Positions 1,425-31,175 of a stretch of 31,175 bases of DNA are shown here, one piece after another. This stretch comes from a virus: IMG/VR virus record IMGVR_UViG_3300036760_001535, positions 1 through 31,175 of that record. One strand, 5' to 3'. The stretch's first letter is position 1, and every line of letters starts with the position of its first letter. Position numbers and translations under genes: made by a program. Below the pieces are notes generated by a model. It worked only from the letters and a program-made list of their open reading frames with translations, was not told the DNA's origin and ran no database searches.

Positions 1425-4400
1425 TCAAAGCGTGGCAGTCGCCGGCCAACCGCGGCCCACGGTGGCGGAGAGCTGGTAGACCTTCACAAGCACGGAAGAC
1501 TGCGGCGCGCCGAAATCGGTCGTCTGCTGCGCAGCGGTGTATGTTGCGGACGGCGTTGTCGAGGACAGTGTGCGAGCGACCGTCGAGCCGTTCACGACGT
1601 CGATCTCGTAGCGCTCACTCTCTTCGTTGAGCGGGACGTCGACGCCATCGGCCCAGCCACCACCGAGGCGGGTGCGCCGTACCCAGGTGACCGAAAGATC
1701 ACCCGAGCCGTTGCGTGTACCCCTGACCTGAACCGGGGACCACGGCATCAAGCCGACCGCCCGGGTCGTAAACGTCGTCTGCTGCCATGCCGGATCGCTC
1801 GCATCGAGGCCGGGCGGACCCCAGCGGTAGAAGCGGGCAATGCCGCGCTCGGCGAGGGCCGTCTGCAGTTGCGCGATAGCCCCGTCGATCAGAACGACGG
1901 GGGCAGCTGCCGCGAGCGGCGAACGCATGCCGTGTTCGGTCCCCATCCGGCCACGCAGGAGCTTGGTCAGGTCATAGGTACTCGGCGCGACCAGGTTCGC
2001 GTTGCAGAATTGCACGATCTCCCAATCGCCGTCCGGCGTGCCGATCGCGAGCGCGTTCGCGCCCCCCGCAAGGATTTCGGCTTCGGTGCGGCTCGTCAGC
2101 TCGCCGGCATAGAGTTTGATCGAGAGGACATTGACGTCGTCCCAGTACGCCGTCGGCCCGGCCGGGAAGGAACCCAGCGTCTCGCCCATGATGGCGCGGA
2201 TCGGCAGCGTGGTGTCGACCGCGAAGCTCGATCCGGTCGCGCTGTCGAGCACCAGGATGCCGGCGAACGGCGAGGCGCAAGCGCCGGCATAGGGCGACCA
2301 AGGAACGTCGGTGTCGATCAGGATCGGCAGGTCCATGATCCGCAGGACGGCGGCGCCGAGGACCGGCGGCACCGTCACCGCGGGCGGCGCAATGCCCGGA
2401 AGCAGCGGAGCGTAGACCGCGGCCTCGGCCCGCTGCGCTTCCATGTTGCGCTGTCCGCCGTCGTTGATGCGCGTCAGGCGGAACGAGCGCGAGCGACCGC
2501 CAATCACCAGATCGATCACGTCGCCCGGGTCGAGTGCAACGAGCGCAGGCGGAAGCGCGAGTTTTGCGGTTTCGCGGGCGATCCAGGCTTCGGCGAGTGC
2601 TCGATCGGCGATCCCCTGCGCCTGCACGTCATCCATGACCAGTGCGAAGCTTGCGTCGCGCTTGCGGTCCGACCACCCCGCAAGCCGGCTCGCGGCGATC
2701 GACCCCGACTGATAGTCGTTGTTGCCGTCGATGAAGGTGACCGAGACCACGTCCGGCAGATCGGTCTCCTGCGCGCGCGTCAGCGTAACGGCATCTCCCT
2801 GATCCGGCGCGACGCAGTCCTCGGGTTCGACGGTGGCGACCGAAGGGCGGCCACGCGCCACGAAGCGGATCACGCCTTCGCTTTCGGTGGCGTCGAAGGC
2901 GAACGCCTGCATCAGCATTTCGATTTCGGCGCGGGGGCTCATCGGCCGGTCGCGCACGTAGCCGACGACGATACCGAACAGGCCGGTGACATCGACTTCC
3001 GTAAACCCGACCCTTGCGCAGCGCTCAGCTACGAGCGCGCCGAGGTCGGCTAAGCCCACCTTGCCGTTGAGCCAATGGCCAAGGGGCCAGAGGTCGCCGT
3101 CGCTCCAGATGTCGGTGCGGGCGGGCCAGGCGGGATACGGGCGGGCATCCCAGGTCCACGCCGCGATCGTCGCGACCATCGGACCGCCGTAAACCGACGA
3201 GATCAGATTGTTGCCCGCCCAATAGGTCAGCATCGCCTCGATGCCGCGCCGCTGGATCAGGTCGTCCCGCGTGCCCCGCGAATAGTAGGGGAGCGCGCTT
3301 TCCGACGACTTCGGATCGTAGAAGACGTTCGGCTGGTTGGTCCCGCGGTCGACCGAGGGAATGCCGAACTCGGTGAACCAAATCGGTTTCGACTGCGGCG
3401 CCCACGCGGTGTGCGACCCGCTCTCGGTCCCGCCGGGACGGTCGTAGTGGTCATTGAGCCACCAGTTGCGGAAGTCCTTTGCGCGCCAGACCCAAGGCTT
3501 GCCGTAGGCGCCGTCGGTGATCGACGTGCGGGTCTGGGCATCGCGGTCGGCCTGCGACGCATAGAACCAGTCAAAATCTTCGCCGCCCTCGATGTTCGAT
3601 TGCAGATAGGCGTGGTCGTAGATCGAGGGAGCGCCTGCGAGCGCGTCGAGATGCGCGGTGCCGTCACGCCAATCGGAGAGCGGTACGTAGACGTCGACCC
3701 CGACGAAATCGATGTTGGCGTCGGCCCAGAGCGGATCGAGATGGAAAAACAGATCGCCCGAACCGTCGCCAGGCTGATAGCGGCCGTAGTCGGACCAGTC
3801 CGCCGCATAGCCGACCTTCACGCCGGAGCCGAGGATCGCCTTGGCGTCGGCTGCGAGTATCTTGAGATGATCCGCTGCCGGAAAATGCGTGGCGCTGTCG
3901 CGCACGGCGCAAAGACCGCGCAGCTCCGAGCCGATGAGAAACCCGTCGACAGCCCCGGATTCGACCGCATTGATGGCGGCGCAGAGTCGCGCGCAATGCA
4001 GGATGAATCGCCGGAAGCTCCACTCGTTTGGTCCCGAATAGACCGTGGTGACCGCGTTCGACGATCCGTTGACTGAGACGCCGATCTGATCGCGCGTGAC
4101 TGTCCCGAAGAACGACGCGATCTGACTCGAAGCCGCCGCCGTCTTGTCCACCGTACCGGGCCGCCCGGGCGCCGGGTCGCAGGTGATGCGACCGCGCCAC
4201 GGATAGGCAGGCTGTCCGGTATTGCTGGTCCACGGATCGGGCAGCGTGTTTCCGCTCGCAATGTCCATGAACAGGAACGGATAGAAGATGATCGAAAGAC
4301 CGCGTGCCTTGAGGTCGCGGATCGCGCGCACGAGAGAGTCGTCGGATGGCGTGCCGCCGTAGGCGGGCCGGCCCTGGACGGTGCTGACGACCGCCGCGAC

Positions 4401-21731: not shown

Positions 21732-21954
21732 GCCGTTCTCGCCGCATGCGCCAATTCTCGAAGGCGCGTCGCATCAGATAGGATCGCAGAAGCGACACGC
21801 CCGTGAAGACGGCGCCCAGCAGCAGGTTCTCCCCGAGGCTCGGCCGCAGTCCGAACAGTGGAAACACGGCCATCTGTGTCGCGACGGCGACCCCGTATCC
21901 GATCATGACGTTCGCAACCGCCTCCACCAGGGACGTGAGGCGGCTTTGCATCAT
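21712..21954 (-). CDS. Small membrane protein (DUF7220-like)
   Basis: An 80-residue protein with two predicted membrane helices (residues ~10-32 and ~42-62): VEAVANVMIGYGVAVATQMA, and LGENLLLGAVFTGVSLLRSY. It ends in a basic tail (MRRAFENWRMRRERQ). It matches the DUF7220 type as I recall it, found repeatedly next to phage ParB/methyltransferase genes. The ATG overlaps the methyltransferase stop (ATGA), so the two are coupled. Function is unknown. Confidence 0.75.
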   Translation of the reverse strand: MMQSRLTSLVEAVANVMIGYGVAVATQMAVFPLFGLRPSLGENLLLGAVFTGVSLLRSYLMRRAFENWRMRRERQSAAGP

Positions 21955-23201
21955 GCGGCCATTCGCTCGGTCCTGAGCTCATCGAAGCTGCGGCCACTGC
22001 CGGCGAGCGTCGCTGCAATTCTCGTATGTCGCTGCCACCGCTCAATAACAACATCGCAATAGCGTGGATCTATTTCCATCGCGAGGCAGACGCGACCGAC
22101 GGTTTCGGCCGCGATCACGGTCGATCCGGAACCGGCAAAAGGCTCATAGACGGAATCGCCTCTCGCGCTGTTATTCACGATCGGCCGGCGCATGCACTCG
22201 ACCGGCTTCTGAGTGCCGTGCACGGTCGCCTCGTCCTCTTCAACGGCGGCTCCGATCGCCCAGAGCGTGGTCTGATCACGCGCACCCTGCCAGTTTCCGT
22301 TTGCGCCCTTGCGGACCGCGTAGAAGCAGGGTTCGTGCCGCCAGTGATAATCACCCCGACCGAGCACGAGGCGCGGTTTGGCCCAGACGATCTGCGCGCG
22401 AATGTTGAAACCGCATGCCTCCAGGCTCTCGGCGACGGTGCGGCTGCGGACGCCCGAGTGCCAGACGTAGGCGACGTCCCCCGGAAAAAGCGCCCACGCT
22501 TCGCGCCAGTCAGCACGATCATCGTTGCGGACTTTGCCGGTGCGCGCCGTCACCGACACGCCGGCTTCATTACGCCAATTGGGGTCATACTCGACCCCAT
22601 AGGGTGGATCGGTGACCATAAGGTGCATGTGGACACCATCGAGAAGGCGCTCGACGTCGGTCGGCGCGGTCGCGTCCCCGCACAGCAATCGATGCGGCCC
22701 GATGAGCCACAGGTCGCCCGGCCGCGTCACTGCCCGGGCTGGCGTCTCCGGAACTTCATCTTCACCCTCGGAGGTTCCATCTCCATCGAGGCCGTCGAGC
22801 AGACGGTCGAGTTCGTCGTCCCCGAAGCCCAGGAGTTCAAGGTCGACGCCGTCTTCCTTCAATCGCGCCAACTCGGCGGCAAGGAGCGCTTCGTCCCAGC
22901 CGGCATTGAGCGCGATCTTGTTGTCGGCGAGCCGAAAGGCGCGCGCCTGCGCGTCGGTCAGGTGACCGAGACGGATGACGGGCACTTCCGAGAGCCCGAG
23001 ACGCTTCGCAGCGATGAGGCGCCCGTGACCCGCGATCAATACGCCGCGTTCGTCCACCAAGCACGGCACGTTGAAGCCGAATTCCGCGATCGATCCTGCA
23101 ATCTGTGCAAGCTGTTCGTCGGGGTGGGTCCGCGCATTGGCTGCATAGGGCAGAAGCCGTTCGATCGGCCAGTGCTCGACCTGAAGCGCTTCAGGCAGCA
23201 T
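21951..23201 (-). CDS. ParB-domain / DNA methyltransferase fusion (first copy, DPPY type)
   Basis: A 416-residue fusion. Residues ~8-100 are a ParB/Srx-like nuclease fold with the AGHGR motif and a following LADNKIALNAGWDE. The rest is a beta-type DNA methyltransferase with catalytic TDPPYGVEYD (DPPY at ~198-201), and the SAM-binding YEPFAGSGSTVIAAE near the C-terminus. DPPY suggests an N6-adenine enzyme. The start at 23201 (MLPEALQVEHW) overlaps the preceding copy by 11 bases; a longer in-frame start at 23309 would overlap far more and adds an atypical N-terminus. No restriction enzyme is adjacent, so it is probably an orphan methylase protecting phage DNA or regulating gene expression. Confidence 0.92.
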   Translation of the reverse strand: MLPEALQVEHWPIERLLPYAANARTHPDEQLAQIAGSIAEFGFNVPCLVDERGVLIAGHGRLIAAKRLGLSEVPVIRLGHLTDAQARAFRLADNKIALNAGWDEALLAAELARLKEDGVDLELLGFGDDELDRLLDGLDGDGTSEGEDEVPETPARAVTRPGDLWLIGPHRLLCGDATAPTDVERLLDGVHMHLMVTDPPYGVEYDPNWRNEAGVSVTARTGKVRNDDRADWREAWALFPGDVAYVWHSGVRSRTVAESLEACGFNIRAQIVWAKPRLVLGRGDYHWRHEPCFYAVRKGANGNWQGARDQTTLWAIGAAVEEDEATVHGTQKPVECMRRPIVNNSARGDSVYEPFAGSGSTVIAAETVGRVCLAMEIDPRYCDVVIERWQRHTRIAATLAGSGRSFDELRTERMAA

Positions 23202-24579
23202 CCGCGATCTCCACGCCGCGTTCAGCGGCGATCTCTTCGAATGTTCGACCGGTACCATCGAGCGTGACGGGTTGATCCGGAAAGAGCTTTCGCCAACGCA
23301 AGACGGCAACGTCGATGTATTCCGGGGCGAGCTCGATCGCTCTCACGCTCCGGCCGGTGCGCTCGCCTGCAATCAGGCTCGTGCCGGAGCCGGCGAAGGG
23401 CTCATAGGCAACATCGCCCTCGTCGCTGTAGGCACGCATCACGAACTCGGGCAGCGCGACCGGGAAGACCGCCGGATGTTCGGTCTCGATGCCGCGCGCC
23501 TTGTGTCGGGTGATACGGATGACGCTGTCCGGAATGCGGGTCTCCTGCACGCCCTGGCCCGCATGGCTCCATTCCCCGACGTGACCATCGCGGCTGCGCA
23601 TGCCGCCGTGCGTATCGTTGATGTGCCCCGCCCACTTGCAAGGCACGATCTTGTTGGGCTTCCGCGCCGTCCGATTGAAGTGGAATACCAGCTCGAAGGC
23701 AGGCGCCAAGCGGCCGTTCCAGTCGCCCGGCAATCCGGGTCCCTGGTCCCAGGAGTAGAGCGCGAAGCGGCGCCAGCCTTGCTCCCGCATCCAGTCGAGC
23801 CAGCTCTGCCAATAGGGCTGCCACTCGTTGTCGCGATGGATCAGGCCGAGGTTGACGAGAAGCTGCGCCTCGTTAGTAACCGGAAGGCCGGCGAACACGC
23901 CCTGCATCAGCGCGTCCCAATCGCCGACGCCGCCGGTCGTGTAGTCGCGTTGGTTTCCGTAGGGCGGCGAGGTGAAAACGAGCGATGCGCGCTCCCCCTC
24001 CATGACGCGCGAGACCACCGCCGCATCGGCACTGCTGCCGCAGAGGAGGCGGTGGCGACCGATCAGCCAAAGATCGCCAGTCCGCGTGACTGGTTCGCGT
24101 AGCGGAGCGGGCGCTTCGTCGGCAGCATCTTCGCCGCCGTCACCGGCTTCCGCCTCACCGCCGAGCGGCGCCATGAGCGCATCAAGCTCGGCATCGGAGA
24201 ACCCCGTCAGGGCAAGATCGAAGCCCTCGCCATTGAGCGCATGCAGCTCGGCCGCGAGCAGTTCGTCGTTCCAGCCCGCGTTGAGCGCCAGCTTGTTGTC
24301 GGCAATGACGTAGGCGCGACGCTGCCCTGGGGTCAGGTGTCCGAGGACCACCACCGGCACGGCGTCGAGACCAAGCTTCCGGGCCGCCAGCAGTCGGCCG
24401 TGACCGGCGACCACCACGCCCTCGGCGTCGACTAGGATCGGGTTGGTCCAGCCGAACTCGACGATCGAGGCGGCGATCTGCGCGATCTGGTCGTCTTCGT
24501 GCGTGCGTGCATTGCGCGCATAGGGAATCAGCCGGTCGAGCGGCCAATGCTCGACCGTATCGGGCAGTCGTGGCGTCAT
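23191..24579 (-). CDS. ParB-domain / DNA methyltransferase fusion (second copy, SPPY type)
   Basis: Paralogue of the following gene, 462 residues from the chosen ATG (MTPRLPDTVEHW). It shows the same ParB-like N-terminal part (VVAGHGRLLAARKLG, ADNKLALNAGWNDE). The methyltransferase core has VFTSPPYGNQRDY (SPPY at ~204-207) and ends in YEPFAGSGTSLIAGERTGRS. SPPY is more typical of N4-cytosine enzymes, whereas the neighbouring copy has DPPY, so the two may modify different bases. A GTG start at 24651 would add residues encoded by the upstream repeat cluster and is less likely. No good ribosome site was seen before the chosen ATG. Confidence 0.92.
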   Translation of the reverse strand: MTPRLPDTVEHWPLDRLIPYARNARTHEDDQIAQIAASIVEFGWTNPILVDAEGVVVAGHGRLLAARKLGLDAVPVVVLGHLTPGQRRAYVIADNKLALNAGWNDELLAAELHALNGEGFDLALTGFSDAELDALMAPLGGEAEAGDGGEDAADEAPAPLREPVTRTGDLWLIGRHRLLCGSSADAAVVSRVMEGERASLVFTSPPYGNQRDYTTGGVGDWDALMQGVFAGLPVTNEAQLLVNLGLIHRDNEWQPYWQSWLDWMREQGWRRFALYSWDQGPGLPGDWNGRLAPAFELVFHFNRTARKPNKIVPCKWAGHINDTHGGMRSRDGHVGEWSHAGQGVQETRIPDSVIRITRHKARGIETEHPAVFPVALPEFVMRAYSDEGDVAYEPFAGSGTSLIAGERTGRSVRAIELAPEYIDVAVLRWRKLFPDQPVTLDGTGRTFEEIAAERGVEIADAA

Positions 24580-24907
24580 GTGGTTTGTGTTCGCGCAGTA
24601 CCGCGACGCGGTGGTAACTTGTTTCGGGGTTACCACGCGTGGGGTTACCACCCGCGGCGAGCGGAAAACTCGCGCCGTTGCGCGCCTTTAGGGCACACAG
24701 GGGCCAACGTTGCGTGGTAACTGGTAACTCAGATTTTGCCGCTGACGGTGGCGAAGTTTCGGGCCATTGCCCCCCGCATAGGATCTCCGCCAGGAAGGAC
24801 CCGCGATTGCCTCGACGCGCGCACGTCTCGCGAGCCTGCCAACGAAACTAGCCAATTCGGTGCGTTCTGTCTGAGCGAAAAGTGTCTGGCAGACATCTTT
24901 CGCTCCA
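24580..24907 (-). promoter_or_regulatory. Intergenic control region with clustered GTGGTAAC / GTTACCAC repeats
   Basis: This 328-base gap between the methyltransferase operon and the DUF6362 gene contains no convincing gene. It holds five copies of one short motif: GTGGTAAC at 24611-24618 and 24714-24721, its reverse complement GTTACCAC at 24629-24636 and 24644-24651, and a partial TGGTAAC at 24722-24728. The two middle copies extend to an 11-base direct repeat GGGGTTACCAC spaced by 15 bases. Position just upstream of the operon suggests operator sites for a repressor or for the methyltransferases themselves. No confident -35/-10 pair was assigned. Confidence 0.6.
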
Positions 24908-25357
24908 CTACGCTGTCGTCCCCGCTGCGATCGTCCTCTCAATGAGCCGTCGCTTCGAGAGACCTTTCGGCAGGTGATGCCCGTTAAGTTTCCACGCGGT
25001 CACGCAGAGGGCGTAGAGCCAATGCTCGTGCGCGGCGGCGCGCTGCAGTCCGACCTTCCAGCACACCGTCTTCCACCGCTCGCCCGAGGCCCGCAGCCAG
25101 ACTACCTTGCGGTCGGTCGGCTCCAGCCACTTCAACCAGCCCAGCGTCTCCTCCATGCGGCTGATCGCGTCGGCGCTCGGCCTGACGCGTGTGACTCGCG
25201 GAGGCTCCTGGCTCACAATATCACTGAACTCATAGAGCATCCTTGGCCAAGTGTTAAAGTGACCCGGGACGCACACGTCGGGAAGCCGCTTCATCACGTC
25301 AGCCGCTTCGACGAAGCGCTCTTCCACCATCGACTCGGTCCAGCGTGGTTCGGTCAT
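24908..25357 (-). CDS. DUF6362 family protein
   Basis: A 149-residue protein of the DUF6362 type (as I recognise it), with WTESMVEERFVEAADVMKRL at the N-terminus. Residues ~65-115 (SRMEETLGWLKWLEPTDRKV, VWLRASGERWKTVCWKVGLQ) look like a sigma-region-4/helix-turn-helix arrangement, ending in a basic LPKGLSKRRLIERTIAAG. Similar phage proteins lie between the replication and packaging genes and may control late transcription; this is inference. The ATG overlaps the upstream stop (TGATG), so it is coupled to the small ORF before it. Confidence 0.78.
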   Translation of the reverse strand: MTEPRWTESMVEERFVEAADVMKRLPDVCVPGHFNTWPRMLYEFSDIVSQEPPRVTRVRPSADAISRMEETLGWLKWLEPTDRKVVWLRASGERWKTVCWKVGLQRAAAHEHWLYALCVTAWKLNGHHLPKGLSKRRLIERTIAAGTTA

Positions 25358-25707
25358 CACCGGCCCTCCCGAGGCGTGCGGCCATAGAGCTTTGATCCGA
25401 GCTGACGGACCAATTCGCGCTCGGGCCAAGTGAGACGCTGATCTTCGGCACTGACCACAAGGATTCCCTGGTCGCGCCAGCCGTACCGCTTGATGGCTTC
25501 GGTCTCGTATGGGGGCGGAGACTTGCGTCTGAGCGTACAGTTGGCCGGCGCCGGACCGAGGCTGCGAGTGTCAGGTGTGACGGATGTGACGGGTTGTTTC
25601 GTTATGTCCCCACGCGCGCGCGCGTGCGCGCGCGTGACGTTGATATCGAAGTGATCCGTCACATCCGTCACAGCGTTGGCTTTGTTGGATTTCACCGGGT
25701 GCTCCAT
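25357..25707 (-). CDS. Small hypothetical protein overlapping a repeat structure
   Basis: A 116-residue ORF without a recognised family. Its N-terminal half (VTDVTDHFDI, TRAHARARGD, PVTSVTPD) is low complexity because it is encoded by an inverted-repeat/alternating-CG element. Its C-terminal half (RYGWRDQGILVVSAEDQRLT followed by WPERELVRQLGSKLYG) looks like a genuine conserved phage segment. It starts six bases after the primase stop and is coupled to the DUF6362 gene. The N-terminal part may be a by-product of a functional DNA element. Confidence 0.65.
   Translation of the reverse strand: MEHPVKSNKANAVTDVTDHFDINVTRAHARARGDITKQPVTSVTPDTRSLGPAPANCTLRRKSPPPYETEAIKRYGWRDQGILVVSAEDQRLTWPERELVRQLGSKLYGRTPREGR
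25576..25672. repeat. Iteron-like inverted repeat around an alternating CG tract
   Basis: TGTGACGGATGTGACGG at 25576-25592 and its exact reverse complement at 25656-25672 form a 17-base perfect inverted repeat. Each arm is itself a tandem pair of TGTGACGG, giving four copies in all. The 63-base interior contains an almost perfectly alternating CG tract at about 25611-25637 that is itself nearly palindromic. The element lies next to the primase gene, so an origin of replication or cruciform regulatory site is possible. Confidence 0.7.
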
Positions 25708-25713
25708 GGTCGG

Positions 25714-28023
25714 TTAAAGCTCCATCTCGGTGGTGCCTGCGCTGCCCTCGCGTAACCGCAGCCCTCGAAAGCCTCGTGCTCGATGATCCCGGCGCTTCTC
25801 GAAGCCCCGGCTCACGAGGTTCTCGGAGAGCCATTTGACCGAGGCGATGAACTCTCCGTTGGCTTCCGCCCACACCTTCCAGGCGGCAAAGAGGGCTGCG
25901 CTGGTCTCGGTCAGGTTGGGCCCGCGTTCGCACTTTTCGTCGAGCCACCGGCCGAGCGAGTCCTCGGCCTCGAAGTATTCCTCGGTCGCCGCTGCGACGG
26001 CGGCAGGAGGCTTGAGGCCGATGCGCTGCCACTCGCGGCATCCATCGACCGCCCAGGCCAGGATGCCGTCACGCTCGGCCAGCAGCTTTTCCGGCAGCTT
26101 CTGGTCCCGCTGACTCGGCGGAATAGTCACGGTGAAGGGGATCAGGTGGAGCCGGCGCCGCATCGCCTCGTCGACGTTGCGAATGGCCGGCTTGTGGTTG
26201 CCCGCGATGATGAGCTTGAACTGCGGGATGAACTCAAAGAAGTCCTGCCGCATGAACCGGGCGGTGATCTTGTCGCCGCCAGTCAGCGTCTTGAGCTTGC
26301 TCTCCGCCCAGCGCCGCCCCTGCTCGGTTTCGGTGGCCGTGACGAGGCGCGCGCCACGCAATCCCGCCATGTCGGTCGGGTGCCGTTCGCCCATTGTCGC
26401 CATGAACATGTCCATGGGGGCGACGGTCGCGAAGTCGCCCAAGATCGCGGCGACCGTGGTGACGAAGACCGATTTCCCGTTTGCGCCCGTGCCATACAGA
26501 AAGAACAGCGCGTGCTCGCTGGTGACGCCGGTGAGGCAGTAGCCCACGACGCGTTGAAGGTAGGCTTCCAGCTCGGCGTCGCCGCGTGTGACGGTGCCCA
26601 GGAAATCCTGCCAGGCCGGACATTCGCCGCGTGGCGTGGCGGTGGCGATCTTCGTGTTGGCGTCTGTCCGCCTGTGCGGAACAAGTATCCCCGTCCTGAG
26701 ATCGACCACTCCGCCGAGCGTGTTGAGCGACCACAAATCGGCGTCCCAGATATCGGTCGATGCGGCATGACTTCGGTCCGCGCGCGTGAGCCGCTCGACT
26801 GCCGCCACCGTGCCGGCGGACGCAAGCTTGGCGCGCAGCTTGACATTGGTGCAGGCGGCCGCCGCTTCTCGGCACACGATCCGTGCGAGGTCGTAGACCT
26901 TCAGCGTGTTTTCGCGTTGCCAGTGCGTGCCGGTCCAGACGAGCCATTGGCCCCAGGCGGCCACATAGCGCCAATCCTCGCCATGGCGCTGCGTGAACTG
27001 GAGCGCCAGCGCATCCTCGGTAAATTCCGATGCGCCAAGGCCCGCCTTGTCTTTGCGCTCGCTGTCCCGCTGCCCAAGCCGCTTCGTCTCATGCCGAAGA
27101 CGGTCCATGGGCCAAGGCGGAATGATGCAGGCTTCGTTGTAGGAGACGATCTCCCCCCATGCCTGCTCGCGCGAGATGTGCCCCTCCGCGCAACGCCGAA
27201 TCCAATATCCGATGATGCGGCTCAGTGCGTCGAAGCGCGTGATGCCGTCAACGCCCCCTTCGTGGACGCGCTTTGCGAGGAGTTTAGCCGCGGGTTCCTT
27301 AGCCGCGCGGGTGGCATCCGGTGTTGTCACCGTGCCGTCGGCAAGGACGGGCAACGCTTCAACCTTCTCGGCAAGTTCGCTGAGGTCGTATTCCAACGAT
27401 CGTTGGGCGCGAATTGCGACCAGGCGCTCGACGCCACCCTTGCGATAGATCGACCCCGCAACACGGATCGGCTGGTGCGCCGATCCAAACGAGGGATCGC
27501 CTCCGACCCTGTCGGCGATCACCGACCGAAGCTTGCACACCGCCGCAACGTCGGTACCTACGGCAGGCTCGGTCAGATTCCAGTAGAGGTGAAGTTTTTC
27601 CTGGCCCTGCTCCGTAATGCCGCCCGAGACGACCTCGAGGGATGGCGGCCCGAGATGCTCGGCAAGGTGATCGCGTTTCGATCGCACGTCGCCGTGGTCG
27701 AGATCGACCAGCACGGTCTGCATTGCGACGACGTCGTCCGCCTTGGCCTTGCCTTGCCCCGACACGGTGCCGGGGATGACGTAGAGAGCTAGACCTGCCT
27801 TGGCTGCTTCTGTCGCCTCCGCCACAAGCTTGATGCCGAGATCCGAGTCGGCGCGGAGAAACGGCAATCTCGGCGGCCGATTTGCTGTACCCTTTTCGGA
27901 GAACTCCCGTACCGCTACCCACCCGTCGCAGTAGCTGAACAAGACCTTCGAAAAGGTCTCGATCAGCGCGGGGTCGGGGGCAATCGGATTGCCGGCGTCA
28001 TCTCCCTCGGTCATCGCCATCAT
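25714..28023 (-). CDS. P4-type phage DNA primase/helicase
   Basis: Replication initiation protein, 769 residues from the preferred ATG; numbering below is from the longer frame that begins at 28137. The N-terminal half is archaeo-eukaryotic primase/RepB-like: VLVDLDHGDVRSKRD (DLD at ~145-147), KLHLYWNLTE and PIRVAGSIYRKGG. The C-terminal half is a superfamily 3 helicase: Walker A LYGTGANGKSVFVT (~549-556), the acidic TATETEQGRRW, FKLIIAGNHKP, and EAMRRRLHLIPF with its arginine finger. The start at 28023 follows the HTH gene by 13 bases; the 28137 frame would overlap that gene by about 100 bases. It should open and prime phage DNA, plausibly at the nearby repeat element. Confidence 0.95.
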   Translation of the reverse strand: MMAMTEGDDAGNPIAPDPALIETFSKVLFSYCDGWVAVREFSEKGTANRPPRLPFLRADSDLGIKLVAEATEAAKAGLALYVIPGTVSGQGKAKADDVVAMQTVLVDLDHGDVRSKRDHLAEHLGPPSLEVVSGGITEQGQEKLHLYWNLTEPAVGTDVAAVCKLRSVIADRVGGDPSFGSAHQPIRVAGSIYRKGGVERLVAIRAQRSLEYDLSELAEKVEALPVLADGTVTTPDATRAAKEPAAKLLAKRVHEGGVDGITRFDALSRIIGYWIRRCAEGHISREQAWGEIVSYNEACIIPPWPMDRLRHETKRLGQRDSERKDKAGLGASEFTEDALALQFTQRHGEDWRYVAAWGQWLVWTGTHWQRENTLKVYDLARIVCREAAAACTNVKLRAKLASAGTVAAVERLTRADRSHAASTDIWDADLWSLNTLGGVVDLRTGILVPHRRTDANTKIATATPRGECPAWQDFLGTVTRGDAELEAYLQRVVGYCLTGVTSEHALFFLYGTGANGKSVFVTTVAAILGDFATVAPMDMFMATMGERHPTDMAGLRGARLVTATETEQGRRWAESKLKTLTGGDKITARFMRQDFFEFIPQFKLIIAGNHKPAIRNVDEAMRRRLHLIPFTVTIPPSQRDQKLPEKLLAERDGILAWAVDGCREWQRIGLKPPAAVAAATEEYFEAEDSLGRWLDEKCERGPNLTETSAALFAAWKVWAEANGEFIASVKWLSENLVSRGFEKRRDHRARGFRGLRLREGSAGTTEMEL

Positions 28024-28036
28024 GGAGGCCGTAAAT

Positions 28037-28294
28037 TCAGGCACGGCCGGTGGCGGCAGAGACCTCGACGGCGTTCGCCGTGCTCGTGCGCACCTGTTGG
28101 GCTTCGTATGCCTCGACGTCGTCGAGGCGATAGACAACGCGACCGCCGATCTTGAGGTACCGCGGGCCCTGCCCTAACCAGCGCCAGCGCTCCAACGTGC
28201 GCGGGCTGATGCTCCAACGACGGGATAGGTCAACCTGATTGAGATGGCGGATCGGCTTGACCTGGTGGGCATCGGCTTGGATATTCTCGGGCAT
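28037..28294 (-). CDS. AlpA/excisionase-like helix-turn-helix protein
   Basis: An 85-residue DNA-binding protein of the MerR-like HTH_17/AlpA type: IRHLNQVDLSRRWSISPRTL followed by ERWRWLGQGPRYLKIGGRV and VYRLDDVEAYE. These proteins act as excisionases or regulators of early genes in prophages and P4-like elements. An AGGAGA ribosome site lies eight bases or so before the ATG. It heads the leftward replication operon. Confidence 0.9.
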   Translation of the reverse strand: MPENIQADAHQVKPIRHLNQVDLSRRWSISPRTLERWRWLGQGPRYLKIGGRVVYRLDDVEAYEAQQVRTSTANAVEVSAATGRA

Positions 28295-28444: not shown

Positions 28445-30400
28445 TCAACGTCGCTCAGGTGGACTTGTGACAGGCTGTGCCGGGCTGTGTGACGTCACCG
28501 TGCTTTCGATCTCTCCGATCGCAACGAATCGTATGTACGGATTCAGCCGGTAGCCCTGACGCGCCTTGTTCTTAATGAGCAGGTGTTTCGGCGGATCCTG
28601 GCCGAATTTCCGCTTGTAGGCATCGCGCACAGCGGTACGGCAACGAGTCACCCGCTGGCGAACTGTCGGCTCATCGATTTGAAGGCCTTCCGCGAGCTTG
28701 TGGGACGTCACGTACTGATAATTCTCGGGGCTACGGCCATCGGACAGGTCTTGCTGAAAGGCGCCGTGAAGCTCATGAACCAGCTTGCTGTCGGCATCCC
28801 CGAGCTGAAGCAAGTCCCGGACAACGATCTGTTTTGTCTTTGCGTCAACTGCCAACTGCAGACCATCGCCATCTGCTTGTTTTGTCGCGGCACTTGCCCG
28901 CTCCGCCTCCGCGTCGTCGACCCATGTCTGCAATGAATCAACACGCTTGCCCATGATTGCGATGGCTGGCGCTCCGCCTGTCGATACGGTCATCACCAGC
29001 AGAGATGACGGCGGCAGCGTTTTGCTGACAAGTTCCGCGCTATGCGTTTCGACCGCGGCCTTGAGCACGCCAGCAATCCCTTGAGCATGTCGTTGGTGAA
29101 GGTCGAGAACTCGGCGCCCGACCTCGTCTGCGCTCTGCGACGGAAAACACTTGAGGACGCGCGCAGTTTCACCACCGAACCGGCCGAAGAATGCCAGGTC
29201 GCTTGATTCAAGGAGCTCCAGTGCCGTTCTTACGTAGGACTCGGCCATCGTTTGGTCGTCCGCCTCATCGCGTAGGCCGGCGAGGAGCTCTACCTTGTAC
29301 ATCTCGACGGGATCATGTTCGGCAGCATTAGCCGCAAGAACCGCGAAGCGGCGATCGATGCACTGCGAACAGCAACCGCAGTGAGTGTGTAGCTTGGTGA
29401 TGTTGTAGACCCGCGTACAGCTGACAGTGTGCCGGATCAGCTCTCCACAACCGCGATCCACGATTGACCGAACGACATCTCCTTTGGTCTTCCAGATGAA
29501 AGGATTGTCGACGTCAACCGCCTTGCCCACAGCCGCACTGAAAAACTGCCGAAAGTGGTCCAAGACCAAAGGATGCGTGGTGCGCGTTGCACGGGCACCA
29601 ACGACCTGCTCGGAGATTGGCAAATTGATGCTGACGACACCGTTCTCGAAGAATCGAATCCGGCTGTTCCCGAGCAAACGGGCAACAACGCAAGCGAGTG
29701 CCGCGTAAAGAAAGGACCGAGATCGCTGCGTAAATTCTTGAACCCGGAGCGTTTGTTGGGTCGTCGCAAGAACTGGTACGTGCATGACCTTCTGCGGAAA
29801 TCGCGTGACGAGTTCCGTGACGAGATGCTTTTGATGGTCGTACATTTTTGGTGACGAGCGATGGCTCACGAGCGCGACGCGTTTACCATTTGCCGACAGT
29901 TCCTCGATGGCCCCGCTGAGGGAGTCTAGCCCGCCAGAAAATAGAACGACTTCGTCCGCCTTAAATGTCGCGCCACCGTCGGCATCGCTAAACTCCAGAT
30001 AGTCCTGAATTGGAACCGGATTGGTCACCTTTTCAAACTCGAACTCGTAATCATCTTCCGACAGAAACGAGAGCATCGAGCAGAGCGCTTCCAAGACGTT
30101 ACGACGGTTCCAATGATCCGGATTTCTCACTGGAATGACGAATCGAAAGCTGCGGCGCCAGTCCGCGCCCATCCCAACCTGCGCTGGACCACCTCGACTT
30201 ATCGCTTGGTCAGCGCAGTAGACGTATGTGGCAATTTCGATAAGGTCGACGAGCAGGCCGGGAACGTTCCTGACCATTTTCTTGCTGATGTCTTCCAGCT
30301 TGAGTGTGATGTTCTGTGCTCGACCGCTCAAGGCAAGCCTCAGCGTCGGAGTTCCACCGGACCGCCTTGCTCCGCCACAGAGGACGAGACGCTCAGCCAT
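28445..30400 (-). CDS. QueC-like PP-loop enzyme with C-terminal winged-helix domain
   Basis: A 651-residue protein with three parts. Residues ~1-145 are an extra N-terminal domain. Residues ~148-365 are a QueC-like (7-cyano-7-deazaguanine synthase type) PP-loop enzyme: VVLFSGGLDSLSGA (PP-loop SGGLDS at 155-160) and a zinc-site pattern with Cys at ~328 and CGCCSQCIDRR at 341-351. Residues ~560-625 resemble an OmpR-type winged helix (VTSHKLAEGL, EPTVRQRVTRCRTAVRDAYK, then GYRLNP). It is far longer than housekeeping QueC (about 230 residues). QueC-like enzymes of this kind are known from the Qat and type IV CBASS anti-phage systems, where they are thought to act on partner proteins rather than in queuosine synthesis. 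It overlaps the upstream gene by eight bases with a GGAGAG ribosome site. Confidence 0.88.
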   Translation of the reverse strand: MAERLVLCGGARRSGGTPTLRLALSGRAQNITLKLEDISKKMVRNVPGLLVDLIEIATYVYCADQAISRGGPAQVGMGADWRRSFRFVIPVRNPDHWNRRNVLEALCSMLSFLSEDDYEFEFEKVTNPVPIQDYLEFSDADGGATFKADEVVLFSGGLDSLSGAIEELSANGKRVALVSHRSSPKMYDHQKHLVTELVTRFPQKVMHVPVLATTQQTLRVQEFTQRSRSFLYAALACVVARLLGNSRIRFFENGVVSINLPISEQVVGARATRTTHPLVLDHFRQFFSAAVGKAVDVDNPFIWKTKGDVVRSIVDRGCGELIRHTVSCTRVYNITKLHTHCGCCSQCIDRRFAVLAANAAEHDPVEMYKVELLAGLRDEADDQTMAESYVRTALELLESSDLAFFGRFGGETARVLKCFPSQSADEVGRRVLDLHQRHAQGIAGVLKAAVETHSAELVSKTLPPSSLLVMTVSTGGAPAIAIMGKRVDSLQTWVDDAEAERASAATKQADGDGLQLAVDAKTKQIVVRDLLQLGDADSKLVHELHGAFQQDLSDGRSPENYQYVTSHKLAEGLQIDEPTVRQRVTRCRTAVRDAYKRKFGQDPPKHLLIKNKARQGYRLNPYIRFVAIGEIESTVTSHSPAQPVTSPPERR

Positions 30401-31175
30401 TGGCGTCTCTCCGCTTGCGCAATTCCGCGCGGAGCTTCTTGAACGCTACATGCGCAAACTGGCTGGCCTTGTCCGGGCTAATATCTCCTTCTTGGAAGAG
30501 CGTCTTGCCGTACCATCCGCCTGAGAATTCCTTGATGATCCGCGATGCTTCACGGCAGTGCAGGTCCAACGCGGCGTTGAAATCGCTGTGCTCACTGACA
30601 GCGGCAAACCGTTTGTTTGGACCGACATGTTTCGACAGCTCTCTGCTCAGGAAATAGCCGAGCGAGCGGCTGGTAAGCCGAGAAAAGAAATCGCGTGCGA
30701 GGACGCTGAACCGATCCGATGTGCCGAGCTTGGCGAAGGCCTGCTGGACGTCACCTGCGGTGGGGCCAAAGAGACTCGGTAGCTCGCGGCCGACCAATGA
30801 GGAAAGGGTCTCGGCAGCAGCATGCTGCGCCATTTCGCCGAGATCGCTTCGCTTGCCGCTGTCGCGAACATGCCGGTCAACCGCAGTGGTGAACGCCCCG
30901 ACGATTTCCAGGAGAGTGGGCTTGCTCGAAACCTCCAGCCCCAGCCGCTTCAACTGGTCGGCGAAGTTGACCTGCCTCGCCGCCTGCGGGAGCTGGGTCA
31001 GCAGCCAAAATGCGTGGGCAAGCCCTTGGTCCGCAGACGCTCGTTCGAGTCCGTGTTCAGCGGCATCGGCGCTTGCAGCGGCGATCCGCCCCACATCGGC
31101 TCCCGCCGCGATGAGGCCGACGACCTGCTCCCACTTGTGCGTTTTCGGAAGCGCACCGAGGCGAACGTGACCCAT
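30393..31175 (-). CDS. QueC-associated helical partner protein, reaching the window edge
   Basis: A 260-residue, mostly helical protein of unknown function directly upstream of and overlapping the QueC-like gene. The first in-window ATG is the last codon of the window and gives the N-terminus MGHVRLGALPKTHKWEQVV; because nothing upstream is visible, the true start could be further out. The protein lacks a signal peptide, membrane segment or known catalytic motif. Visible segments include ADQGLAHAFWLLTQLPQAAR and LGYFLSRELSKHVG, and a conserved-looking C-terminus with EFSGGWYGKTLFQEGDISPD before a basic tail. Coupling to the QueC-like gene suggests it is the enzyme's substrate or partner. If the visible start is right, Met removal would expose an N-terminal glycine. 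Confidence 0.75.
   Translation of the reverse strand: MGHVRLGALPKTHKWEQVVGLIAAGADVGRIAAASADAAEHGLERASADQGLAHAFWLLTQLPQAARQVNFADQLKRLGLEVSSKPTLLEIVGAFTTAVDRHVRDSGKRSDLGEMAQHAAAETLSSLVGRELPSLFGPTAGDVQQAFAKLGTSDRFSVLARDFFSRLTSRSLGYFLSRELSKHVGPNKRFAAVSEHSDFNAALDLHCREASRIIKEFSGGWYGKTLFQEGDISPDKASQFAHVAFKKLRAELRKRRDANG

Follow-up and report, generated by a model that had tools for sequence, protein, structure and literature searches.

An inverted pair of tandem iterons behind a P4-type primase gene: a probable phage replication origin with an alternating CG-rich core

Introduction

A 97-bp element found in a phage or prophage with a self-sufficient P4-type primase-helicase is likely to be an initiator-binding site, and most likely the replication origin. 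Taken more broadly, as either a primase-binding origin or a site required in cis of the kind of P4 crr, this assignment is very probable from the comparisons presented here. The layout of the element, its linkage to the primase gene, the covariation of its repeats, a residue-to-base code and the alternation of its core were all obtained by sequence analysis. From the element as a whole we infer an origin function.

For most phages with D5/P4-type primases no mapped origin is available. If the proposed reading is true, the origin of such phages could be read from the 3' end of the primase gene, its sequence would be partly predictable from one helix, and the specificity and evolution of initiator-origin pairs would become testable in hundreds of phages. 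Moreover, P4 crr, the Sfi21 origin, the PICI origins and the pRN1 stem-loop, which were described separately, would be joined into one layout, and a conserved purine-pyrimidine alternation at an origin core would be a rare signature of a possible Z-DNA function in bacteria and phages. An element of this kind is already known; judged by the sequences compared, what appears to be new is the alternating, CG-rich core together with the code that relates residues to bases. No description of either was found in the open-access literature, to which the search was confined, subscription papers lying outside it, and the literal repeat occurred in papers only as primer coincidences.

Results

The element was identified in a stretch of 31,175 nucleotides (the window; IMG/VR record IMGVR_UViG_3300036760_001535). 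In the window, positions 25576-25592 read TGTGACGGATGTGACGG, and positions 25656-25672 carry the perfect reverse complement of this sequence; the two 17-bp arms are spaced 80 bp from start to start. The arms hold four copies of TGTGACGG, at 25576-25583 and 25585-25592 on the plus strand and at 25656-25663 and 25665-25672 on the minus strand. One more, isolated copy lies at 26587, and shuffled windows contained 1.2 copies on average and 4 at most. The dyad is present once in the whole record, in which a second cluster of the 17-bp unit was not found. An earlier sequence-only reading had placed the element and its four repeats correctly and had rightly described the arms as perfect reverse complements; its tandem repeat of 8 bases has to be corrected to a direct-repeat period of 9 bp with the unit TGTGACGGA. 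In relatives, the self-identity of the arms likewise peaks at lag 9 (0.60 vs. 0.19-0.31 at other lags).

Looser arms of 30 nt (25576-25605 and 25643-25672) are 83% complementary. They enclose the core CACGCGCGCGCGCGTGCGCGCGCGTG, a CG-rich tract of 26 nt with unbroken purine-pyrimidine alternation. Folded as DNA, the 97 nt give a single, almost uninterrupted hairpin of -40.7 kcal/mol, compared to -19.9 +/- 2.4 kcal/mol for shuffles of the element (z -8.55). Rfam returned just two sub-threshold microRNA precursor models for the element, which simply recognise a hairpin. The GC-skew profile, which the sequence-only reading had put forward as a check, gave no clear origin-like switch centred on the element. 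The primase gene is encoded on the minus strand, and the element starts 41 bp behind its stop codon. The features are as follows.

25576-25592, plus strand: left arm, two tandem iterons (TGTGACGGA TGTGACGG) with 9-bp period
25593-25610, no strand: left spacer, relatively AT-rich, partly complementary to the right spacer
25611-25636, no strand: core, 26-nt alternating CG-rich tract, Z-DNA-prone
25637-25655, no strand: right spacer
25656-25672, minus strand: right arm with two tandem iterons, perfectly reverse-complementary to the left arm
25357-25707, minus strand: small ORF, its N-terminal half over the element; C-terminal half (residues 56-112) matches phrog_19772
25714-28137, minus strand: P4-family primase-helicase, proposed initiator (TIGR01613; Pfam D5_N, DUF5906; phrog_6088)
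25753-25902, minus strand: C-terminal winged helix of the primase (residues about 746-795), proposed iteron-reading domain
25810-25839, minus strand: predicted recognition helix (residues 767-776), with the K768 codon at 25834-25836

The exact 17-mer of the left arm was present in 89 IMG/VR viral contigs. A primase ORF was contained in the fetched DNA of 68 of these, and in 65 of the 68 loci having both, the 17-mer was located 5-162 bp behind the primase stop (exceptions: L045, L054, and L057). Among 70 whole records searched, 48 carried D5_N. To avoid selection on the motif, a second survey began from the primase, taking its 80 nearest relatives among viral contigs and a further 80 from bacterial genomes. 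The layout was found just behind the gene in almost every relative, with differing iterons such as TGTGACGGA, CTGACAGAT, RTGACGCAG, TGAAGCTTC, TGTGAAGGA, TCTGTCGGA, CTGACGCAG, CTGACGGAT, and others. A 17-bp inverted repeat with 0-1 mismatches was present in 21 of the 31 clusters of the viral-contig set, while shuffles never gave fewer than 3 mismatches. Within 260 bp behind the stop codon, inverted repeats of 15 bp were sought and the best one kept: it had 0-1 mismatches for 86 of the 124 non-redundant primases, but for just 4 of the 966 controls, which were other genes of 250 codons or more taken from these loci. The element is thus more than a chance product, and the origin-like position beside the primase that the sequence-only reading had pointed out is borne out.

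The 141 elements with 0-1 mismatches between the arms comprised 75 distinct 15-mer arms. Their arm-to-arm spacing, measured on 15-mers, had a median of 82 bp (5-95%: 74-92), and they started a median of 21 bp behind the primase stop. Conservation of the repeat next to related primases, as anticipated from the sequence alone, therefore holds for the architecture, whereas the exact sequence is kept in only part of the family. Changes are shared by both arms and by both copies of a tandem, as is typical of a covarying recognition site; the suggestion of paired iterons is supported by tandem pairs that face inverted pairs in a layout kept across relatives.

The element was found behind the primase gene in phages of alpha-, beta-, and gammaproteobacteria, of Acidithiobacillus and of Lactobacillus. 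It was not detectable behind the primase of the actinophages JasmineDragon, AvGardian, and Shady and of Vibrio phage 1.072.O. It was absent behind the P4-type primase in the actinophages L176, L179, and L181 (Arthrobacter, Streptomyces, and Microbacterium phages), in which a DNA polymerase I follows the primase at once or past two small ORFs; perhaps phages having their own polymerase use another origin. In Mycobacterium phage Adephagia (L173), a gap of 409 bp behind the primase (2811-3220) contains GGCACAGAT repeats in both orientations and is likely an origin with yet another iteron. Repeats with inverted copies were also seen behind the primase of Listeria phage vB_Lmo_2389_typeII (L175, 2523-2812, GGTGGATAGTT) and Streptococcus phage phi-SsuSSJ27_rum (L177, 2541-2826, GTGTAGGTC), and these are probably comparable origins in phages of Firmicutes. 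Genomes could not usefully be searched with an alignment of 21 very distant primases, which diverge too strongly. The nearest genome relative of the phage carrying the window element was a Pseudorhodoplanes contig (83% identity), and the host is probably alphaproteobacterial.

The ORF at 25357-25707 spans the element, in agreement with the sequence-only reading, which had also regarded the encoded VTDVTD peptide as a by-product of selection on the DNA. The opposite view, that the repeats arose from protein-level selection on this peptide, has next to no probability. Of 153 relatives, 105 do have an ATG-started frame across the element; it lies in one phase in 66 and in another in 39, however, and the remaining 48 have no such ORF. 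Furthermore, the four copies vary in concert, whichever their orientation, and the next gene in the relatives, encoding a RuvC-like resolvase (phrog_159), in many cases begins only after the element. Within the 116-residue ORF itself, the family match is restricted to residues 56-112, beyond the element. As the reading frame across the element is not kept, peptide selection was rejected; the frame comparison indicates that the peptide is an incidental by-product.

The primase matched TIGR01613 with 347 bits (E 6.6e-104; curated cut-off 108.7), in line with its earlier description as P4-type. An AlphaFold2 model of residues 683-807 (mean pLDDT 84) shows a winged helix with helices at 746-759 and 767-776 and wing strands at 780-784 and 787-795. 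Its top Foldseek matches were the RFX DNA-binding domain on the X-box and the C-terminus of the AsfvPrimPol primase-helicase (probability 1.0, E 0.002-0.006). When iteron distances were compared with primase distances after removal of the helicase distance, the correlation was strongest in the last 40-50 residues (partial Mantel r 0.40 for residues 760-800, permutation p 0.001). Two other variable primase regions gave values of 0.25-0.30, which makes the C-terminus the strongest, not the sole, correlate. Because iteron variation tracks the C-terminal winged helix, the primase very probably binds the element there, and not through its N-terminal domain, which the sequence-only reading had proposed for a binding assay.

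Residue 768, the second in the predicted recognition helix, is lysine in primases with xTGACGG iterons and arginine in those with xTGACGC. With respect to iteron base 7, we counted 50 K-G, 38 R-C, 4 R-G (L077, L083, L089, and L096), and no K-C combinations (Fisher 1e-21). On a tree built without the primase C-terminus, 8-9 of 9 phylogenetically independent contrasts showed a joint switch, and none a switch in the opposite sense (sign test p 0.004-0.008). This residue had been chosen after viewing the alignments; a scan of all 460 columns for iteron base 7, in which it ranked first, and a held-out set guard against selection. In the held-out set of 63 non-redundant primases from other scans, whose phages are still relatives of the training phages, arginine occurred with C in 15 of 15 cases and lysine with C in two (L348 and L364). 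A near-isogenic comparison is provided by L202, L246, and L257 (K768, CTGACGGAT) and L229 (R768, CTGACGCAT), whose C-termini are almost identical.

A second association, on thinner evidence, is that of wing residues 782-783 with the choice of A or G at iteron base 4; it holds in 4 of 5 independent pairs. Wings of the form [ED]KFK..T.RG or similar were observed together with TGGC instead of TGAC iterons (L269, L272, L274, L279, L281, L288, L422, and L449), and the wing form is a candidate for a second residue-to-base link. Recognition helix and wing might together constitute a simple iteron code, in which residue 768 specifies base 7 and residues 782-783 specify base 4.

The alternating run at the centre of the element has a median length of 22 nt in GC-rich phages, compared to 6.3 nt for stretches drawn at random from these loci; low-GC relatives have an AT-rich centre. 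Across the relatives, the spacers average 52% GC and the tract 77%. Substitutions in the central 16 nt were almost exclusively transitions (152 transitions to 14 transversions), in contrast to the rest of the core (389:354; odds ratio 9.9, p 1e-23), and the central 20 nt gave a similar picture (165:26 vs. 335:320). These counts over the central 16-20 nt are unconditioned; conditioning on both sequences keeping a long tract biases the count. CpG hypermutability was rejected as the source of the bias, changes in CpG context outside the centre being 82:70. Outside CpG, the central transition bias is weaker (34:12).

Selection for a cruciform was likewise rejected for the tract, which pairs with itself no better than shuffles that keep the alternation (median z -0.2, 109 tracts). 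The interior of the element without its arms is weakly structured in relatives (median z -1.8). The substitutions thus indicate that the alternation itself, not palindromy, is maintained in the core, as would be expected if Z-DNA formation matters. Of the two structures suggested for the core from the sequence alone, the pattern favours a Z-type structure over a cruciform. It is also possible that the alternation reflects an array of priming sites or an undetected mutational bias.

Discussion

We infer binding, helicase loading, opening and initiation at the element, and the following course of events is proposed. The winged helices of the primase would bind the iterons, whereby two ring helicases would be loaded face to face, one on each side of the core. 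The core may absorb supercoiling as Z-DNA, with B-Z junctions beside the comparatively AT-rich spacers, and open. The helicases would then unwind outwards, and the N-terminal half of the primase would prime synthesis. With the site 3' of its own initiator gene, site and reader would stay together in recombination.

In PICIs the origin directly follows the initiator gene on its 3' side and always has two iteron sets around an AT-rich region; one such origin was tested for plasmid maintenance (PMC6092414). The Rep protein of SaPIs reads its origin via the C-terminal domain, and the C-terminal domain of the SCCmec helicase Cch2 binds repeats just behind its gene (PMC7581432). The window element shares with this pri-rep-ori arrangement the site 3' of the initiator gene and the two iteron sets around a central stretch; a C-terminal readout is predicted for it from strong coevolution and the modelled winged helix. 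It differs in the fused P4-type primase-helicase, in its occurrence in phages, and in a core that is CG-rich and alternating; the AT-rich central stretch of PICI/SaPI, Sfi21, and P4 crr is absent from it. The layout has been called unique to PICIs (PMC6092414), which the present data contradict.

The crr site of P4 is annotated 46 bp behind the alpha primase gene and contains a tandem pair of 8-bp type I iterons at 9-bp spacing together with inverted copies (X51522). Like the window element, these iterons (GGTGAACA) are found less than 50 bp from the stop codon of a primase of the TIGR01613 family, their reader. Unlike the window element, crr is composed of two 120-bp direct repeats with AT-rich interiors, and replication starts at a separate ori. 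In Streptococcus phage Sfi21 (NC_000872), the 302-bp origin is annotated from the end of the primase gene onwards, and in it ACTTTAGTTACTTAGTTAC faces GTAACTAAGTAACTAAAGT around an AT-rich stretch. Tandem iterons (TTAGTTAC) directly behind the primase gene thus face inverted ones as in the window, whereas the 8-bp period and the AT-rich core are different.

The archaeal plasmid pRN1 needs in cis a stem-loop of 100 nt, situated 54 bp behind orf904, and this stem-loop also suffices; its structure is conserved and its sequence is not, and the same was proposed for Bordetella phages (PMC4234260). The authors described it as devoid of iterons and proposed that it is recognised in stem-loop form; in their gel shifts, ORF904 did not bind specifically to DNA downstream of its gene (PMC4234260). 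Its stem reads TTATGTCCATAGTGTCCAACT, with TGTCCA twice at 9-bp spacing, which the authors did not remark upon. The window element, with 97 nt, fits this type in size, in its position behind a TIGR01613 primase-helicase with a C-terminal winged helix and in the 9-bp tandem in the stem. The loop of pRN1 is AT-rich, unlike the core in the window. Tandem iterons and the residue-base correlation argue for double-strand readout, not for recognition of a stem-loop form, and the otherwise puzzling sequence divergence of the pRN1 stem-loop would be accounted for by covarying iterons. A long stem-loop was reported for BIP-1 (PMC4234260), a near-identical sister of BPP-1; in BPP-1 no repeat was found under the repeat criterion used here.

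P4 crr is required in cis and is not the start point, so binding to the element does not prove initiation there. An auxiliary site of this kind, bound by the primase and needed in cis while synthesis starts at another origin, would share position and iteron layout with crr, from which the P4 ori is about 5 kb away. We consider it unlikely, though worth keeping in mind: the record holds no second cluster of the 17-bp unit, Sfi21, the PICIs, and pRN1 (PMC4234260) have the origin itself at this position, and a single dyad with a special core looks complete. Somewhat less probable still is a functional hairpin, be it a cruciform, a stem-loop of the pRN1 type or an mRNA 3' structure, in which the arms serve simply as a stem. 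The strong folding of the 97 nt, matched by a median z of -7.0 in relatives, speaks for it, as does the requirement for an intact stem-loop in pRN1 (PMC4234260). However, a stem needs only complementarity between the arms; neither the 9-bp tandem identity within each arm nor the correlation with a residue of the recognition helix would be required, and what the tract maintains, inside a weakly structured interior, is alternation and not pairing. An intrinsic terminator was rejected, as a T run is absent after the element. Inverted sites covarying with a recognition helix would look similar in an operator that lets the primase, or some other repressor, regulate the replication operon, yet the element lies behind and not before the primase gene in diverse phages, and no conserved promoter context was established; this explanation is very improbable.

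Returning to the origin reading, a farther-reaching proposal can be made tentatively, and we regard it as possible but somewhat doubtful. In GC-rich phages, a maintained Z-DNA-forming alternation might replace the AT-rich unwinding element, with the B-Z transition and its junctions driving opening, and jointly with this, the residue-to-base code might predict origins across P4-family replicons, from archaeal plasmids to phages.

Two further observations concern the neighbouring genes. Beside the replication module, the gene at 28445-30400 (minus strand) encodes a QatC-like protein (PADLOC QatC, E 2.9e-60; Pfam QueC), which suggests part of a phage-carried Qat anti-phage defence system; its neighbour at the window end (30393-31175, minus strand) matched no family. 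The overlapping adjacent ORFs at 21951-23309 and 23191-24651 (both minus strand) each encode a ParB-like N-terminal domain together with an N6/N4 DNA methyltransferase.
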